From Alphaproteobacteria bacterium (GTDB lineage: Bacteria; Pseudomonadota; Alphaproteobacteria; Thalassobaculales; Thalassobaculaceae): a stretch of 64,000 nt of DNA. A program made the position numbers and the translations under genes. The notes beneath the pieces were generated by a model. It made no database searches. It was not told the DNA's origin and saw nothing but the letters and a program-made list of their open reading frames with translations. Shown one piece after another: positions 31,356 through 43,161 of this stretch (position 1 is the first letter of the stretch; each line of letters begins with the position of its first letter). The stretch is from positions 1 through 64,000 of the forward strand of contig JAJEAR010000064.1 of assembly GCA_022822665.1 (NCBI GenBank), written 5' to 3'.

Positions 31356-33887
<2,532 letters not shown>

Positions 33888-34375: not shown

Positions 34376-36826
34376 TCACAATCCAACGAGACCGAACGCC
34401 TTGCCGCGCGAGTATGCAACCGGACGTTGTGTGATGGAGTGCCTGTAGTGCTTCCGCGTAAACCGGACCAACTCGTTCATCGAATAGTCCACGATCTCTC
34501 GAACCGAGACCTGCCGATCAACATTGCTGTCTGCGGCGCCACTCATCCCCTGCAGCAGGATGTAGGTCAGGACGCCATGTTCCTCATGGATCAGTTCCTT
34601 TGCCTTTTCGTCCGCCTGCGATGCGGCAATGACATGAACGCCGCCAACCCTTGCCATCTGGCGCAGGGTTTTCTGCGTGCGTGAATCATCGAACGCCTGA
34701 AGCGCAGCACCCGAGAAGCATGCGTCCAGAACCACGAACACACGTCGTGCCTTGATTCCGCTGGTCAGCAGCGTCATCAGTTCCCGGCTCGACAGGGCAT
34801 GCTTCCTGATCAGCTGGTTCAGTCTTTCTTCCGACGTACCATTCTGCCATTCATCACTGTAGGGCATCATGTACCATTCCCAGCCATTGCCCTTGCCTTG
34901 CCTGAGGGCTTGCCCGTGACCGGAGAACAGGACCACCAGCACATCTTCCGGATCTGTTTTCAGGTTGCGCAATACGCTGGAAATCGCGTTCCTGTCAGCC
35001 GAGCCCTCCAGAACGGTATGCACGTGAACGTTCCGGTACGCTGGCTCCCCGGTACCGGTCAGAACCTTCCCGCTCCGTTGCCTGATGGTCTTGGTGAACG
35101 TCTCTGCATCCTTTGTTGCGTAGAACAGCTTCCAGGGTGGTACTCCATAGTTGTCGATACCGATCGCAACGACGTGCAGATCAGCTGTCGGATCAGCGGG
35201 AGCGGCATGCTGCAGGGAACGAACGGCCTGCTGTCCCTCGACACCGTTTTGCGTCACCGCCATGGCGCGAAACTCGTTGGAACCGGAAACCAGCCCGATA
35301 CGGCTGGAAAGACGACCCTGTCCATCTGCCTGGGCAACCAGCTTGCCGTTGTGATAGAGCCGGATCGACCGGATCCGGTCCCGGGGATAGTCGGATTCCG
35401 TTCTGACCGTGACGGCAACGGCGGCGTTCCTGTCAGGGGCCCCGAGATCCATCGACACGGTCGGTGGACGGCTGAACCCTTCCATCAGGTTCCGTGAATC
35501 CGACGTGAGCAGTTCGTCCCCTCTTCGGACCTTGCGCAGAAGTGCCGGTTCGTAGTGCGTGGCTGAAAACGCATCCACCGGGAGTACGACAGCAGTGTTG
35601 TCTGTTCCGGCTGCGCCGGACATGGCCACGGCATCGATTCCGTCCTGTGATCCGTCGAACCTGCCTTCGGCGTCGACGACAGTCCATCCGTCCTCGGTCG
35701 AGATCAACTGCGCGATGGGCCTGCCATCGGCACGACCAGCCCTGGTCGGATGGATCGCGACCTGGCCATCCTCCCCTCCGATCAGCAGCCACCCGCTGGT
35801 GGCGTCGATGGCGAGCGCGCCCTGGCGACCGGCCTCGAGCGTGCGGATGAACGTGCCACCACCGTCCCTGGACCAGAGTTCAACATGCTCGCTTCCGTCT
35901 CCGGCGGCAGCAAGTCTGCCGTCAGCGTCAAGAGCCAGGGTATTGATGGGGCCGGAGATCCGCGTCTCCTTGCGGAAGACTCGCCGGGGTGAGTGCTCGA
36001 TATTCCACAGGCACAGTGCTCCTGCCGCGTCGCCGACAAGGAGGTGCCGGGTGCGAAGGGCAAGTGCCGTGATGCGGGTGTCCCGAGTGCAGGAAATCCG
36101 GACTGGTTCTGGTTTCCATCGCCGGCTTGCGAACCGAAGCGTTACTCCGTGCCCCTGCTCTCCAGACACATAGGCCAGCATATTTCCGTCTCGCGACACT
36201 CCAGGCCGAGCGTCATGTGCCGCATCGGGAAGAATGAACACGAAGCCGGACACCGGTCGCGCAAACCAGGCGCCATTCAGTGCGCGATAGACGAACAGTC
36301 CGCCGCTATCGGAGAGCGCGGGGCGTGCGCCAGGATCGAAAAGGTGGACCGGTTCGGATATCGACCGGCGTTTCCGGTCCGGACCAACCGTGAAGACAGC
36401 TCCGTCAGGTCGCGCAACAGTGGCACTGGCGTCCGGGTCCCCGGTCGACAGGGCCGTTGCGACACCGTTCCCGTCAGGGACATGCGCGAACTGCAGGCCC
36501 CGTACGAGATCCCACCATCTCAGGCTGCCGTCATCAAGCGAAACCAGAAGCGTAGAGCCATCCGGACCAAGGGCAAGACCGGTGATGGCACCGGCCAGAC
36601 GGCCCGGGTCAATGGTGATCCGGGTATTGACCACCTGATATCGTCGATCCGACCCGATCGCTCTGCCCGAATCCATCAGACGGGGTCCTATGATCGATCC
36701 AATCGGAGGGGGAGGGAGAGGACGAAATCTCAAGCCCTGTGCAAGAACTGGGGCCGCAATTGCACACAATGTCACGACAATCAGGAGCGCCGTCAGACCG
36801 GTGCGGGCAGTTGACACGCGGACCAT
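34376..36826 (-). CDS. Exported caspase-like (C14) protease with WD40-like repeats
   Basis: An 816-residue protein. An N-terminal signal peptide (LTALLIVVTLCAIAAPVLA) sends it across the inner membrane. Residues ~80-400 form beta-propeller-like repeats (GAITGLALGPDGSTLLVS, ALAIDATSGWLLIGG, WDL/WSR endings). The C-terminal ~250 residues are a caspase p20-like domain with the catalytic His at about 637 (VLFSGHG) and Cys at about 703 (VVLDACFSG). No obvious self-processing site is seen. It is the last gene of a five-gene same-strand run with a second caspase, two DUF4384-like proteins and an autotransporter-like protein. Substrates unknown. Confidence 0.85.
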   Translation of the reverse strand: MVRVSTARTGLTALLIVVTLCAIAAPVLAQGLRFRPLPPPPIGSIIGPRLMDSGRAIGSDRRYQVVNTRITIDPGRLAGAITGLALGPDGSTLLVSLDDGSLRWWDLVRGLQFAHVPDGNGVATALSTGDPDASATVARPDGAVFTVGPDRKRRSISEPVHLFDPGARPALSDSGGLFVYRALNGAWFARPVSGFVFILPDAAHDARPGVSRDGNMLAYVSGEQGHGVTLRFASRRWKPEPVRISCTRDTRITALALRTRHLLVGDAAGALCLWNIEHSPRRVFRKETRISGPINTLALDADGRLAAAGDGSEHVELWSRDGGGTFIRTLEAGRQGALAIDATSGWLLIGGEDGQVAIHPTRAGRADGRPIAQLISTEDGWTVVDAEGRFDGSQDGIDAVAMSGAAGTDNTAVVLPVDAFSATHYEPALLRKVRRGDELLTSDSRNLMEGFSRPPTVSMDLGAPDRNAAVAVTVRTESDYPRDRIRSIRLYHNGKLVAQADGQGRLSSRIGLVSGSNEFRAMAVTQNGVEGQQAVRSLQHAAPADPTADLHVVAIGIDNYGVPPWKLFYATKDAETFTKTIRQRSGKVLTGTGEPAYRNVHVHTVLEGSADRNAISSVLRNLKTDPEDVLVVLFSGHGQALRQGKGNGWEWYMMPYSDEWQNGTSEERLNQLIRKHALSSRELMTLLTSGIKARRVFVVLDACFSGAALQAFDDSRTQKTLRQMARVGGVHVIAASQADEKAKELIHEEHGVLTYILLQGMSGAADSNVDRQVSVREIVDYSMNELVRFTRKHYRHSITQRPVAYSRGKAFGLVGL

Positions 36827-36856: not shown

Positions 36857-38863
36857 CTACTGCGACCTGTTGGCCACGGTGTAGTGAAGCAACGCGGTCC
36901 TTCGCCCGGCCTGGTCATTGGACCGGAGTGCCTCGATCATCTCTGACAGGTACGCCCTGGGTCTGGCTACGGGCAAGAGATCCTTGTGCCGGGACGTCAG
37001 TTGGTCGAGCGCTGTGGATCTCTCTTCGGTCACGAGAGCAAACAACACGCCGTCCCCGGCCGGCGGCTGTGCACGGAAATGATACCGCGCATCTTCTCCG
37101 GGAAGATGAACCGATGCGCCCGCCTGGATGCGGTCCGCGAAGGGATCTGCTGCTCCCGCGCCTGACGTGAACCGATTGGGATACAGCTGAACAATGTTCC
37201 CGTCCGGTGAAATATCCAGCAGAATCAGGAAACCGTCATGCTGGCTCGTCACAACAAACTCGGCGACGCTGCCGACCTCAAGTCGGGTGCCGGATGCTAT
37301 GGCCAGATCCACGCCAGCATCGGAAGCGGCTGAAACTGCCTCGACCTGCCGCACACTGATGTCCTTGGACTGCGACGGTATGTGCCGCACTCTCTCGAAG
37401 GCAGTCACGGCGCCGGTGCCGCTCGCATACATCTGTGGTGTAAGGCCATTACCGCATCGGTTGCGATTTGCTTCGCAGTAGGCGGAGGAACGGGCCTGCA
37501 GGAAAGAGATCAGTTCGTCCCTTGAGACGCTGCCGTCATTATCCAGGTCAGCCTGGCTTTCGCGGAACCCGTTCAACAGGTTCTCGGTAAACCAGCTGCC
37601 TGCGCCCCCGGCCCGACGTTCCTCATTGCGGAGCATCAGCGCCTTCTGGTCGGCCTTGACAGCGGTCCAGACAGTCAGGTCCAGACTGCGGGAACCCAGG
37701 TCCTTGGTAGGCACAAGCTCGCCATCGTTTGAATCACTGCTGGCTGCCGATATCGTGGACAGGGGTACGGCCGGCTTTCCCGGCCTGAGTGGGCTGCCAT
37801 CAAGTCTGGTCGGTGATTTCACCGTGGCCCGTGTCACCTCGTCAGTTACGACCCCGAACTTGTCGCTGGTCCCGGCGTGACAGGCGTCGACCACAAAGAG
37901 CACGCGTCGTCCATTCAGTCGCGAAAACAACCCGGCGATTTCATCGTCGGTGATCATGTTCTGGAGCGTACCTTGCTCGTCATAGAACGCATCATAGGGG
38001 ACCAGCGTTTCATCCAGTCGATCGGCCTCGTCGTTATTTTGGTCGAACTGCTGGTACCCGTGCCCACTGAAGTACAAGAACACTGTCTCTCCGGGACGAG
38101 TGTCCCCGATCAACACTCTTTCCGCGGTGTCCAGGATATTGCTTCGCGTTGCTTCTTCGTCGACGAGCATTTTGACTTCGTCGCGGCGAAATCCCAGGTG
38201 GGACATGGCAAAGGCGCGCATGTTCGTGGCGTCCTGAACCGTGCCGGGAAGTGCCGGGCTGACCTTGCGATAGTCTCCAACTGCGATGATAAGCGCTCGC
38301 CCGTTCGATGCAGGCACCGCTGCAGTCGGCGTTCCCGTTGATGCTACGTCGTGTCGGACGATTTCGACACGACGGTTGCGCGCGTGTCTGCCGGGTATGT
38401 CGTCGAGCAGGTGCGTTTCCCCGAACCCGACTTCGACCAGCCGGGATGCATCGACCCCCTTGCGCTGGAGATACCGACTGACCGACAGGGCCCGTCGTTC
38501 CGACAGCAGGCGATTGTATTCTATGGACCCTGCGCTGTCGGTGTGACCGTGAATGGCGAAATGGGAACTACCCAGGGCACTGTGCTGCAAGGCCTTCGCC
38601 AGCTCATCAAGCTGGACATGAGCAGCCGGTGAAAGGCGGTCTGAATCGAATTCGAACTGGATGTCCGGAAGCATGATGCGTTGATCGCCCGGTAACCCGG
38701 GGCCCTCGACGACACCGATCCTTTTGGTCGTTCCTGCAAGCTGCTGCACGATATCCCGCATTGCCCGCACATCCGTGGCTTTGGCTGCCCCAATCGGGGC
38801 AGCGGCCAACAGTCCCGAGACCAACAGGGCGATCAGCAAGATACGGGTTTGGTGTACAGGCAT
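36857..38863 (-). CDS. OmpA-like - caspase (C14) - EF-hand - DUF4384 exported protein
   Basis: A 668-residue protein from ATG 38863. After the signal peptide (RILLIALLVSGLLAAA), residues ~65-170 are an OmpA-like peptidoglycan-binding domain (IQFEFDSDRLSP, IHGHTDSAGS, NRRVEI). Residues ~188-435 are a caspase-fold protease with His268 (LYFSGHGY) and Cys328 (VVDACHAGT). An EF-hand-like loop, DLDNDGSVSRDE (439-450), may bind calcium. The C-terminal ~130 residues resemble DUF4384 (FVVTSQHDGFLILLDISPDG, IVQLYPN). The layout suggests a wall-anchored, possibly calcium-controlled periplasmic protease. The neighbour encoded at 34376-36826 carries a second caspase domain. Confidence 0.87.
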   Translation of the reverse strand: MPVHQTRILLIALLVSGLLAAAPIGAAKATDVRAMRDIVQQLAGTTKRIGVVEGPGLPGDQRIMLPDIQFEFDSDRLSPAAHVQLDELAKALQHSALGSSHFAIHGHTDSAGSIEYNRLLSERRALSVSRYLQRKGVDASRLVEVGFGETHLLDDIPGRHARNRRVEIVRHDVASTGTPTAAVPASNGRALIIAVGDYRKVSPALPGTVQDATNMRAFAMSHLGFRRDEVKMLVDEEATRSNILDTAERVLIGDTRPGETVFLYFSGHGYQQFDQNNDEADRLDETLVPYDAFYDEQGTLQNMITDDEIAGLFSRLNGRRVLFVVDACHAGTSDKFGVVTDEVTRATVKSPTRLDGSPLRPGKPAVPLSTISAASSDSNDGELVPTKDLGSRSLDLTVWTAVKADQKALMLRNEERRAGGAGSWFTENLLNGFRESQADLDNDGSVSRDELISFLQARSSAYCEANRNRCGNGLTPQMYASGTGAVTAFERVRHIPSQSKDISVRQVEAVSAASDAGVDLAIASGTRLEVGSVAEFVVTSQHDGFLILLDISPDGNIVQLYPNRFTSGAGAADPFADRIQAGASVHLPGEDARYHFRAQPPAGDGVLFALVTEERSTALDQLTSRHKDLLPVARPRAYLSEMIEALRSNDQAGRRTALLHYTVANRSQ

Positions 38864-38936: not shown

Positions 38937-39575
38937 CTACTTGACGATCTGGTAGGTCTTGTGAACGAAGGTCGATCGCGGATGGGCCTTCTGGATTACC
39001 GGGTGGAGGTCCTTGACCAGAGCCGACGCTTGCGGACGCAGGACGGGGAAGGGGTTCGACTGTTCCGCACTGGCGATGAAATCCCGGGTGGGTGATTCCG
39101 GCTGGTCGGACGCGAACACGGTCACCAGTTCCCACCCCTGCGGTTCCATGACCGCAAACTCGTACTCCGCGCCGGCTCCGGGCAGGGAGACGGTTTGACC
39201 GGCCTTGACGTGGTTGTCCTGGGCAAACGCGTTCGGGAATATCCTCGTGACCTTGCCGCTGGTCCCGACATTCCAGACTTCGACGTAAGCGTCTTCGCTT
39301 ACGTTGATGCTGAGTGAAAGCGTATCTCCAATCCGGTACTCCCTCGAATCCCTGTCCAGATCTACCGAAATCCGAAGGGCGTCGGTTGATGCAGTCTCTG
39401 TGCTTGAAACCTGCGGCAGGCCGGTAGCGACAGACCGTTGCTGGGGACTGAGGTCCTTGTACATGGTCTCGTCGGTCTGGGCGGTTGCACTCCCTGATCC
39501 CGCCTGTGCCGGAAGCGACATCAGGCTCACAGCCACTACGGAAGTGATAAGCGATGAGGCCAAGATCTTGTACAT
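38937..39575 (-). CDS. Exported DUF4384-domain protein
   Basis: A 212-residue protein with a signal peptide (ASSLITSVVAVSLMSLPAQA) and a single DUF4384-like beta domain: YRIGDTLSLSINVSEDAY, VEVWNVGTSGKVTRIFPN and VSLPGAGAEYEFAVMEPQG. The same domain type ends the caspase protein encoded just downstream (36857-38863). DUF4384 often accompanies secreted kinases and proteases, but its role is unknown. No catalytic residues are seen. Confidence 0.8.
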   Translation of the reverse strand: MYKILASSLITSVVAVSLMSLPAQAGSGSATAQTDETMYKDLSPQQRSVATGLPQVSSTETASTDALRISVDLDRDSREYRIGDTLSLSINVSEDAYVEVWNVGTSGKVTRIFPNAFAQDNHVKAGQTVSLPGAGAEYEFAVMEPQGWELVTVFASDQPESPTRDFIASAEQSNPFPVLRPQASALVKDLHPVIQKAHPRSTFVHKTYQIVK

Positions 39576-39620: not shown

Positions 39621-40262
39621 TCAGTGCTGGATGATTTCGGTGTGAAGCGTAGTCATGCTGAGCGTGCTCGGATCAATTCGTCCACGCGCCGATTCAAGCC
39701 GCAAATAAAACTGGTCCGGGCTCAGATCAATACTGGCAATGTGTCCGGACTCTGAAAGAATATCGCTTGCGGAAAGAAACTCAAATGGTTTGAGTGTTGC
39801 AACAAAATAGAAGGCCTCCTTGCCTGCCGGAGGCTTGACTATAAGATCGATGTTGCTTTCCTTCAGAGGAAAATCAACAATCTGACCAGTCGTAACCTGA
39901 ACATTATTCAGCAGGCGTGACACCTTGCAGGATGAGCTTACGTGGTAAATGCTGAGGTACGATGGCGTGCTCACCCTGGACTGGACCAAGAGAGGTGCGC
40001 CAACGTTGAAAGTCGCACTCGGAACGCCCCACGCTTCTATCCGGTAGTTCATCGCGACATTGAAATCCGGATACGCACATTGCGGTGTGACGACTTGAAT
40101 CGTTGTTGCCTGCGCTGCCTGTACAAGGGAGGTCTGCTGAGTTTCATTGGCGCAGGCCGAAAGGGCAAGAAAGCAGGAGAGACCAACAATCTTCGTCGTA
40201 GCCAGCAGGCAGGATCGTGTCGACACCTTGAGATGGTGTTCAGATGCAGATGTCGGCTTCAT
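39621..40262 (-). CDS. Putative lipoprotein with DUF4384-like fold
   Basis: A 213-residue protein with a lipoprotein signal: LSCFLALSAC gives a lipobox (L-S-A-C), so the cysteine near residue 37 would be lipidated. The body, FNVGAPLLVQSRVSTPSYLSIYHV then SCKVSRLLNN and IVDFPLKESNIDLIV, follows the DUF4384 strand order (VG-x-x-L, YL-x-I-Y, V-x-R/x-L-x-N). It is less GC-rich than its neighbours. Probably an outer-membrane- or inner-membrane-tethered partner of the adjacent exported proteins. Confidence 0.7.
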   Translation of the reverse strand: MKPTSASEHHLKVSTRSCLLATTKIVGLSCFLALSACANETQQTSLVQAAQATTIQVVTPQCAYPDFNVAMNYRIEAWGVPSATFNVGAPLLVQSRVSTPSYLSIYHVSSSCKVSRLLNNVQVTTGQIVDFPLKESNIDLIVKPPAGKEAFYFVATLKPFEFLSASDILSESGHIASIDLSPDQFYLRLESARGRIDPSTLSMTTLHTEIIQH

Positions 40263-40359: not shown

Positions 40360-43161
40360 TCAGAAACGGAGTCGACCACTGAGTGTCACGCCGTAGTCGG
40401 GACTGTCGGTTCCCGAATCACGCCGGTTGCCGGCAAGTTCCAGGCTGGCACCCGGACCGAACACGTAGCGGGTACCCAAGCGGTTCCGGTTGCCATTGGA
40501 CTCCGAAATCAGGAAGTCCCAGAACGGAGCAATCACACCGATCCCGAGCGGGATGCCGTAGGCCATCCTGGAGGCCATCGACAGTTCCGGGTCACCCGAT
40601 GCGCCCTGGGAGGAGAATACCGGGTCTACGGCGTGGTTCCTGTTCCCCGAATGCATCGGATCACCCCATTGTGGCGACAACGAGAGCGACAGTCCCTCGC
40701 CGCCGGAACCGGGCTGCACACTCGCTGTCACGCTGATGCCGCTTTCCGAGTAGGACCCCACGGAATGATGGGCCAGCATCCGGGCACGGGCTTCAAGGGT
40801 GAAGCGAGATTCGTAGTCCGAAACCAGGATCGACGGTGAAACCTCGACGCCCCAACCGTCCAGCGACTCACTGTTGTCGTGGCGGGCGGCAACCTCGAGA
40901 TAGGCCACCACGGCTGAAGCATCGCCCTGCGCGAGCGTATATCCTGCCTCGGTCCCAATCCGGCCACGCGACACTTGAGCGGAAAGGCCGGCGATAGCGT
41001 GGACACCTTCCTCTGTCTCCATGCTGGCATAGCTCGCGTCAGCGAGGGCGTCGACGGTCAGCACCTCCGACGCATACAACCCGTGCCGGACACCGGCGGA
41101 CGCCATCCAAACCGTCAGGTCGGTATCGGACCGTTCTCCATCCGAGAGGTCTTCGACTTGTCCCTGACCGTAACCGACGATTGTCCATGCTTCGGTACGG
41201 GGACCGAGTGCAACGCGCAGGTACGGGTGCAGGTTGTAGAGTTCGACTTCCATTTCGCCCGCACCTTCAAGGAACGCGTAGTCAGCCTCCGCAGAGATGC
41301 TCGACACCGCCACTCCGGCCAGCAGACCTCCGCCGGTGGAATAATCGACACCGACATAGCCTGCCGTTGCCTGGCCATCATACGCACTAGTATCGACGCC
41401 GGGTTCGCGGTCATCCTCGAACGATTGGAAGTCGGCTCGACCCCAGACGGTTAACTGTGACCTTGAGCCTGCTCCCGGGTTGCTTTCGTCGAGCCCGAGC
41501 GCGATCTCGAAATTGCCGATCGCGCCGAGATCTCCGGTCCGCGTCGTGTGAACCGGCCGCGGATCATCGAAGAAACTCGGAGCGTTCGTTATCACATACT
41601 CCTCGTTCCAAGACTGTCTGGATGAGTTCGCTGGGGTAAGTGCATGTCCTCCCAACGAGACGCTGGTGCCAGTGGACGGTGCAGAAAACCGAACGCCAAT
41701 GTTACTAGTCACGTTGGACAATGCCGCCGAGGCTACCGCTGCCAAGGTGTCGGTGGCGGCTTCCTGATGCTGGATTGCCTGCGTCGTCTGACCTGTGACT
41801 TCGATGCTGAAGGTGATTTCCGAGGTGTTGCCTGCCGGATCCTGCGCGGTCAACGTGTAGTCGGTCGCTGGCATGGTCTGTGCCGCAACGCCGCTGATCG
41901 TCACTGAGGCTGGATCAAAGACAAGGCCGGCAGGGAGTTGCGGCATGAGATCATAGGTAACCGGTCCGGAACCGCCGCTTGCCCGCGGAAGGTGCACGAC
42001 ATCGACGTGCTCATTTAGATGATACGTCTGATCCGGCACGCTGCCGCCTTCGAATGTGGGTCCGACGTCAAGCTCTTCCAAGACCGTGATATTGAAACTG
42101 AGAGACGTCGAGTCGTCGGCCTCGTCCGTGGCCGTGTAGGTATACTCCGTCGACGCCATGGGGCTGGTCGGCGTGCCTGTCAGGCTCCTGCTGGACGGAT
42201 CAAAGGTCAGGCCGGAAGGCAGGGCCGGACTCAGGGAATAGCTCACTGTACCGACGCCACCGCTTGCTGCAGGCAGCGTCACGACCTCGATGTCCTCATT
42301 TACACGATACGTTTGATCCGGGAGGCTACTGGATTCGAACGCGGGGCTGGTGTCAGGCGCCTCCAATACCGTGATATTGAAACTGAGGGACGCTGAGTCG
42401 TCGGCTTCGTCCGTGGCCGTGTAGGTATACTCCGTCGACGCCATGGGGCTGGTCGGCGTGCCTGTCAGGCTCCTGCTGGACGGATTAAAGGTCAGACCGG
42501 CCGGCAGAGCGGGGCTCACGGAATAGCCCACTGTGCCGACGCCACCGGTAGCTTCGGGCAACAGAACAACGTCAATGTCAATTCCAACAGTGAATATCAG
42601 ATTGTGAATAGATTTTTCAAATCGGATGTCATCAATAGAAGGGCACCGACCGACTTCAGTGGACGATATTGCGCAAATGGTGCCCACTACAGTAAAGCCG
42701 GTAGAATGGAAATCAATAACATCATCCAACAAAGAAATATCAAATTCTACATCCTGTCCCCCAGGATCTGAGTATATTGAAACGTCAATTTCTTGGGTAG
42801 AAACGCCCTCGGCACCAAGAGCAATCACGCTTCCAGACGTTTTTAGTGTAACAGGTACGCAAACATCGGTTAGATCTCCAGCATATAACTGCACACCATC
42901 AACGACAAGTACAGCGGACGCAGCTTGTGCCGTAAGTGACTCTTTGGTAACGCAAACCGTGTAGTCAATTGACTCATTCGATTGTGCTACAGCAGGGGCA
43001 TTCCATAGCACTGTACCGCTCCCAATCCCTAGGAGTATTGACACCAAGGACAAGCAGGTAACGAGGGTTGTGCGGTCAGTCTGTCGCTTGCAGGCCGTGT
43101 CACGGAGGAAACGATGCAAAATAGTGACGCCAAACCGCATGAGCGAGGAGAGCCGGTTCAT
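40360..43161 (-). CDS. Ig-repeat autotransporter-like outer-membrane protein
   Basis: A 933-residue protein. An extended signal segment with a hydrophobic core (LVTCLSLVSILLGIGSG) is followed by a region rich in beta strands, then three putative Ig-like (He_PIG-type) repeats of 95 residues (GVGTVSYSLSPALPSGLTFD, SRSLTGTPTSPMASTEYTYT, ATDEADDS). The last ~380 residues alternate in a barrel-like way and end in a terminal Phe (LSGRLRF), as in autotransporter translocators. Repeats 1 and 2 are nearly identical at DNA level. It heads the five-gene run and would present the repeats at the surface. Adhesin-like role inferred. Confidence 0.75.
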   Translation of the reverse strand: MNRLSSLMRFGVTILHRFLRDTACKRQTDRTTLVTCLSLVSILLGIGSGTVLWNAPAVAQSNESIDYTVCVTKESLTAQAASAVLVVDGVQLYAGDLTDVCVPVTLKTSGSVIALGAEGVSTQEIDVSIYSDPGGQDVEFDISLLDDVIDFHSTGFTVVGTICAISSTEVGRCPSIDDIRFEKSIHNLIFTVGIDIDVVLLPEATGGVGTVGYSVSPALPAGLTFNPSSRSLTGTPTSPMASTEYTYTATDEADDSASLSFNITVLEAPDTSPAFESSSLPDQTYRVNEDIEVVTLPAASGGVGTVSYSLSPALPSGLTFDPSSRSLTGTPTSPMASTEYTYTATDEADDSTSLSFNITVLEELDVGPTFEGGSVPDQTYHLNEHVDVVHLPRASGGSGPVTYDLMPQLPAGLVFDPASVTISGVAAQTMPATDYTLTAQDPAGNTSEITFSIEVTGQTTQAIQHQEAATDTLAAVASAALSNVTSNIGVRFSAPSTGTSVSLGGHALTPANSSRQSWNEEYVITNAPSFFDDPRPVHTTRTGDLGAIGNFEIALGLDESNPGAGSRSQLTVWGRADFQSFEDDREPGVDTSAYDGQATAGYVGVDYSTGGGLLAGVAVSSISAEADYAFLEGAGEMEVELYNLHPYLRVALGPRTEAWTIVGYGQGQVEDLSDGERSDTDLTVWMASAGVRHGLYASEVLTVDALADASYASMETEEGVHAIAGLSAQVSRGRIGTEAGYTLAQGDASAVVAYLEVAARHDNSESLDGWGVEVSPSILVSDYESRFTLEARARMLAHHSVGSYSESGISVTASVQPGSGGEGLSLSLSPQWGDPMHSGNRNHAVDPVFSSQGASGDPELSMASRMAYGIPLGIGVIAPFWDFLISESNGNRNRLGTRYVFGPGASLELAGNRRDSGTDSPDYGVTLSGRLRF
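42084..42548. repeat. 285-bp-spaced near-identical repeat units in the autotransporter gene
   Basis: Segments 42084-42263 and 42369-42548 are nearly identical, offset by 285 bp (95 codons), encoding two adjacent Ig-like repeats. The offset keeps the frame. This marks a recent internal duplication or ongoing recombination, and copy number may vary between strains. Confidence 0.85.

Follow-up and report, generated by a model that had tools for sequence, protein, structure and literature searches.

The window, that is, the whole stretch of 64,000 nucleotides that was analysed, contains a minus-strand open reading frame of 668 amino acids with an ATG at 38863 and a stop at 36857; many stops are met when 36857-38863 is read on the plus strand. 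The original prediction had listed a signal, OmpA, C14, an EF-hand loop and DUF4384 in this order, and Pfam and the sequence bear out both the domains and their order. The strand had been left unstated, and the gene actually lies on the complement. It is the fourth of five minus-strand genes that span 43161 to 34376 and are spaced 30-97 bases apart, in the order autotransporter, DUF4384 lipoprotein, DUF4384 protein, OmpA-caspase and WD40-caspase.

40360..43161, minus strand: autotransporter with an Ig-like (He_PIG) passenger and a beta-barrel, 933 aa (Pfam)
39621..40262, minus strand: DUF4384 protein with a lipobox-like LSAC motif, 213 aa (Pfam, 37.8 bits)
38937..39575, minus strand: DUF4384 protein with a Sec-type signal, 212 aa (Pfam, 87 bits)
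36857..38863, minus strand: OmpA, C14 caspase (p20+p10) with EF loop, and DUF4384 in one protein, 668 aa (ORF, Pfam, orthologue)
38378..38656, minus strand: OmpA domain, residues 70-162 (Pfam, 74.9 bits, cut-off 27.2)
37361..38338, minus strand: C14 caspase fold (p20+p10), residues 176-501 (AlphaFold2 model, VIA-align, alignments)
37514..37549, minus strand: EF-hand loop DLDNDGSVSRDE, residues 439-450, between two p10 helices (alignments, AlphaFold2 model)
37022..37279, minus strand: DUF4384 domain, residues 529-614 (Pfam, 49.5 bits, cut-off 27)
34376..36826, minus strand: WD40 and C14 caspase with a signal-like N-terminus, 816 aa (Pfam)

The N-terminus of the 668-aa protein, MPVHQTRILLIALLVSGLLAAAPIGAAKA, reads as a Sec signal without a lipobox, and the protein is predicted to be exported. 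The OmpA domain (PF00691) lies above its Pfam cut-off. Asp109 and Arg124 occupy, by motif, the usual peptidoglycan-binding positions of such a domain; that these positions act as ligands is presumed from OmpA/Pal structures, and the protein may bind the wall through this domain.

Pfam places Peptidase_C14 (PF00656) at residues 188-441 with 86.1 bits against a cut-off of 21.4. His268 and Cys328 were found exactly where they had been predicted and align with the metacaspase dyad, which puts the protein among the C14 peptidases. Among solved structures, type I metacaspases come nearest in sequence: the p20 part matches yeast and trypanosome metacaspases, and a six-sequence profile matches Yca1 with an E of 1e-30. 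Structure prediction had been proposed as a check. It was run with AlphaFold2 on residues 176-501, using an alignment built with relatives from viral contigs (model residue numbers are protein numbers minus 175), and it returned a p20+p10 caspase fold with the EF loop inside p10. The mean pLDDT was 77, with a core above 90; a full-length model made without an alignment had a pLDDT of 33 and was discarded. VIA-align superposes the model, over the range 9-320, on metacaspases with Z of 20-24 and 200-230 aligned residues. The matches (metacaspases 4 and 9, Yca1, CgMCA-I and Geobacter GSU0716) reach the end of p10. In the predicted structure p20 is followed by p10 in one chain, as in type I metacaspases; assignment to the orthocaspases, which have p20 only, was rejected because the prediction includes a p10-like half. 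The Asp that is reported to mark where p10 begins in bacterial metacaspases (PMC6426788) falls, when aligned by eye, on Ala403, next to which is Asp404.

The acids of the S1 pocket in TbMCA2 are Asp95 and Asp211 (PMC6426788), and in the alignments both are present here, as Asp211 and Asp326. Since both are present, cleavage after a basic P1 residue is expected. Thus, of the substrates suggested in the original prediction, those with Arg or Lys are expected to be cut and those with Asp are not. The p20 calcium ligands of the Candida glabrata metacaspase CgMCA-I are Asp198, Asp214, Thr242 and Asp245 (PMC9622860). The first three correspond by alignment to Asp284, Asp306 and Thr332, and the fourth is displaced by one position, to Asp334. 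It is known that calcium drives both maturation and activity of the metacaspases that have been studied (PMC9622860, PMC5756287); MaOC1, a studied orthocaspase, is calcium-independent (PMC7475262). The dyad, the S1 acids and the surrounding motif are intact in the 668-aa protein and in its orthologue, and the sequence supports the earlier picture of an exported-type, metacaspase-like protein that bears OmpA and keeps its His-Cys dyad intact.

The loop DLDNDGSVSRDE, likewise found at the predicted residues 439-450, fits the 12-residue EF pattern, with acidic residues at positions 1, 3 and 5, Gly at 6, a hydrophobic residue at 8 and Glu at 12. The EF-hand_1 match at 437-456 scores 17.4 bits, below the Pfam cut-off of 25.4, and for this reason it is treated as an EF-hand-like loop and not as an EF-hand domain. 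Canonical EF-hands come paired, and Pfam and the pattern gave a single match in the 668-aa protein, with no second, paired EF-hand. Dockerin loops also occur in pairs; dockerin-type calcium repeats were dropped as a candidate because there is a single loop here. In the model the loop (264-275) is flanked by helices 249-259 and 273-290 in a helix-loop-helix with pLDDT of 83-93. In loop-less C14 proteins the alignment shows the same two stretches with a short turn between them, so the loop is an insertion within p10 and not an appended domain. The idea of a separate EF-hand domain following the caspase was thus overturned by the model and the alignments.

A loop that is not conserved in close homologues, together with a protein that does not respond to calcium, had been named as what would refute the prediction. 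The loop was found to be strongly conserved, in close and distant homologues alike, so this refutation fails. The six closest proteins all keep D1, G6, V8 and E12, together with Cys463 and Cys470 just past the loop. The Asp at position 1 and the Glu at position 12 are kept in at least 90% of 22 C14 proteins, about as well as the catalytic Cys, and the loop recurs at the same alignment column in homologues with 19-52% overall identity. Among complete proteins from the fetched loci it is present in 17 of 21 C14-DUF4384 proteins versus 2 of 57 other C14 proteins, counts which are descriptive because the sets were assembled from similarity to C14 or DUF4384 and include relatives more than once. 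In 515,585 residues of background, taken from ORFs of the same loci without C14, OmpA or DUF4384, the loose loop pattern occurs 4 times and the strict one 0 times. Judged on these sequences the loop is no chance match, and it is predicted to bind calcium. Caspases that carry such a loop are in themselves nothing new, since 7 archaeal caspase homologues have previously been described with an EF-hand motif (PMC6426788).

An OmpA-anchored form had been expected to be unusual. This holds for the fusion itself, as two OmpA-C14-DUF4384 fusions were seen, the window protein and one in another genome (G687:C75), but the link with OmpA is no one-off: 18 of 23 C14-DUF4384 ORFs are fused to OmpA or have an OmpA-family ORF on their own strand no more than 3 kb away. 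An Azospirillum plasmid locus (L034) codes for OmpA and the caspase in different genes, and in genome G135 OmpA is fused to DUF4384 instead of to the caspase. Since OmpA-family genes neighbour most C14-DUF4384 genes, the fusion can be seen as a shortcut between established partners. OmpA has already been reported in 14 caspase-homologue operons (PMC3501461), and a search of one literature collection found no description of DUF4384 function or of an OmpA-caspase fusion. The scan of genome contigs gave an OmpA match only, and the first scan of viral contigs gave nothing. A longer ORF of genome G086, which spans the OmpA-caspase border of the query, was rejected, being without an OmpA domain. Genes for C14-EF-DUF4384 proteins also lie near the ends of four viral-classed IMG/VR contigs (L176, L177, L178 and L179, the last of which carries an OmpA gene as well); these genes are probably bacterial flanks.

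All five cluster products have N-termini that read like export signals. The identical five-gene order is present in G687, a genome of another alphaproteobacterial family, at 40-47% identity: 47% over 647 aa for the OmpA-caspase and 41% for the WD40-caspase (orthologues at L126), 40% for the 212-aa DUF4384 protein, 45% for the 213-aa one (31% to its Azospirillum homologue), and 42-44% for the autotransporter, the 42% being for the C-terminal 498 aa. The class is taken to be Alphaproteobacteria because genome G135, which belongs to it, codes for a protein with 69% identity to one of Neorhizobium galegae. The nearest other copies of the autotransporter are 30-33% identical. An Arg-containing linker before the barrel, SNVTSNIGxRFSAP, is common to the two cluster autotransporters and falls outside the region that the other copies align. 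The WD40-caspase has a degenerate EF loop in the same place, DSNVDRQVSVRE (DADGDRNVSARE in its orthologue), in which the acidic positions are mostly kept and the glycine is absent.

The cluster is absent from the other examined genome of the window's genus, and no further orthologues were found in the other examined genomes of its order or of the family of G687. Both C14 genes of the window's genome lie in the cluster; a fourth DUF4384 protein, a 378-aa frame without a caspase, is coded elsewhere (G000 C78:15808-16032, L161). The cluster region has a lower G+C (0.60-0.63) than other parts of the window (0.61-0.70). Next to the cluster, at 32192-33721 on the minus strand, is a transposase-like ORF with an rve (integrase core) match below the Pfam cut-off, followed by a 279-aa ORF (31356-33721 for the pair, minus strand); the two resemble an IS21-type element. 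The patchy occurrence, the lower G+C and the rve-like neighbour fit an accessory, possibly transferred cluster.

Comparison with known systems helps to place the protein. With the type I metacaspases Yca1, TbMCA2 and CgMCA-I it has in common the p20+p10 fold, the His-Cys dyad, the acidic S1 pocket and most residues of the p20 calcium site. It differs from them in being of exported type, in its N-terminal OmpA and C-terminal DUF4384 domains, and in the EF loop of p10, the place of which is taken by a short turn in loop-less C14 proteins. The alphaproteobacterial trypsin-C14-DUF4384 proteins (PMC6426788) have the same C14-DUF4384 core and also DUF4384 and OmpA neighbours, but carry an N-terminal trypsin where the window protein has OmpA. 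Some of them have the EF loop (L097-L099, L127), whereas in the rhizobial proteins the loop is missing and the dyad is Gln-Cys. A second cluster of G687 (L127:899-10521, G687:C4) has C14-DUF4384, lipoprotein-like CHAT protease and trypsin-C14-DUF4384 genes side by side. Pseudo-caspases with a broken dyad lie directly before trypsin-C14-DUF4384 genes at L128:6294-7823 and L130:6511-8067, and one of the two retains a canonical EF loop. Plasmid p2 of Azospirillum sp. TSA2s (L034) resembles the window in its EF-loop caspases with DUF4384, its DUF4384 lipoprotein and its OmpA-family proteins, and differs in having OmpA and caspase as separate genes and no autotransporter. A gene annotated as tubulin-like adjoins this plasmid cluster (L034:7572-11216). 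LapG and DvhG are also periplasmic cysteine proteases, reported to be calcium-dependent and to act on surface adhesins (PMC13090378). They have a transglutaminase-like fold, no OmpA domain and control by a c-di-GMP receptor, so that the logic alone is similar; membership in the LapG-type BTLCP proteases was rejected because the fold here is that of a caspase.

We consider it fairly probable that the protein is a periplasmic, wall-anchored, calcium-supported Arg/Lys protease that works on an envelope protein. The OmpA domain would hold an exported type-I-metacaspase-like enzyme on the peptidoglycan, on the periplasmic side, and the catalytic domain, with its His268-Cys328 dyad and acidic S1 pocket, would cut after Arg or Lys. 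Calcium is expected to act at one or both of two sites, the p20 metacaspase site and the EF loop of p10, and in the latter it would lock two p10 helices together. The best-supported reading is that calcium at these sites braces the fold and perhaps also acts as a switch. The partners would be products of the same cluster, namely the DUF4384 proteins, the second caspase and the autotransporter, and the enzyme would probably serve to cut a protein of the envelope or surface in a controlled way, perhaps the autotransporter, and not to bring about cytoplasmic death.

The periplasm is usually replete with calcium, and for this reason calcium could be purely structural. It is quite possible, though somewhat short of an even chance, that calcium at the EF loop does nothing more than pin the p10 helices, control being exerted by proteolytic maturation or by partner proteins. 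The position of the loop between two helices of the modelled fold would suit such pinning, the Cys463/Cys470 pair would suit a second structural lock, and the loop marks the exported C14-DUF4384 group while it is mostly missing from other C14 proteins. It should be noted, however, that the metacaspases studied so far use calcium for maturation and activity, and that the p20 calcium site is largely retained here. An inactive scaffold, in which the caspase fold binds partners without proteolysis, has a model in the pseudo-caspases of related clusters (L128, L130 and the Rhizobium Gln-Cys type, PMC6426788), but the intact dyad, S1 acids and surrounding motif in the protein and its orthologue make this highly improbable. 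Nearly as improbable is an envelope suicide or defence effector whose activation would kill the cell through proteolysis in the periplasm, perhaps as a protection against phage. Bacterial defence does include caspase homologues, and PADLOC finds its 'caspase' model in the catalytic domain; this match is, however, to a generic C14 domain, the five products look exported, the cluster has no cytoplasmic sensor or NTPase, and no defence model fits the neighbouring DUF4384 and autotransporter genes. With generic caspase and MotB-like matches only, the reading as a defence system was rejected.

As for the substrate, the autotransporter is the most attractive candidate, since both clusters retain it and its two copies there have a linker in common; it is a lead and not a result. 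In a LapG-like logic the wall-anchored, calcium-dependent caspase would clip the co-encoded autotransporter and so shed or mature a surface protein. The autotransporter is conserved beside the caspase in position and sequence in two families, the two cluster copies resemble one another much more than they resemble the remaining copies, the pair has the Arg-containing linker in common in a part to which those copies do not align, and adhesin-cutting periplasmic proteases of this dependence exist in DvhG/LapG. On the other hand, it is found in two clusters only, the other examined C14-DUF4384 genomes have no relative of it, and the fold of LapG differs from that of a caspase, so that we regard this as unlikely. 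Less likely still is the broader proposal of calcium-gated, wall-anchored caspases whose five-gene form controls autotransporter shedding as the caspase counterpart of the LapG switch.

Within a known protease family the protein stands out as an unusual variant, without being of a new kind, and its gene cluster is little studied. Bacterial caspase homologues have mostly been discussed in relation to cell death. The exported clade described here, with a conserved p10 loop predicted to bind calcium and a standing partnership with OmpA proteins, suggests that envelope proteolysis may be an ordinary task of caspases, and residues 439-450 offer a precise site for asking how calcium control enters the caspase fold.
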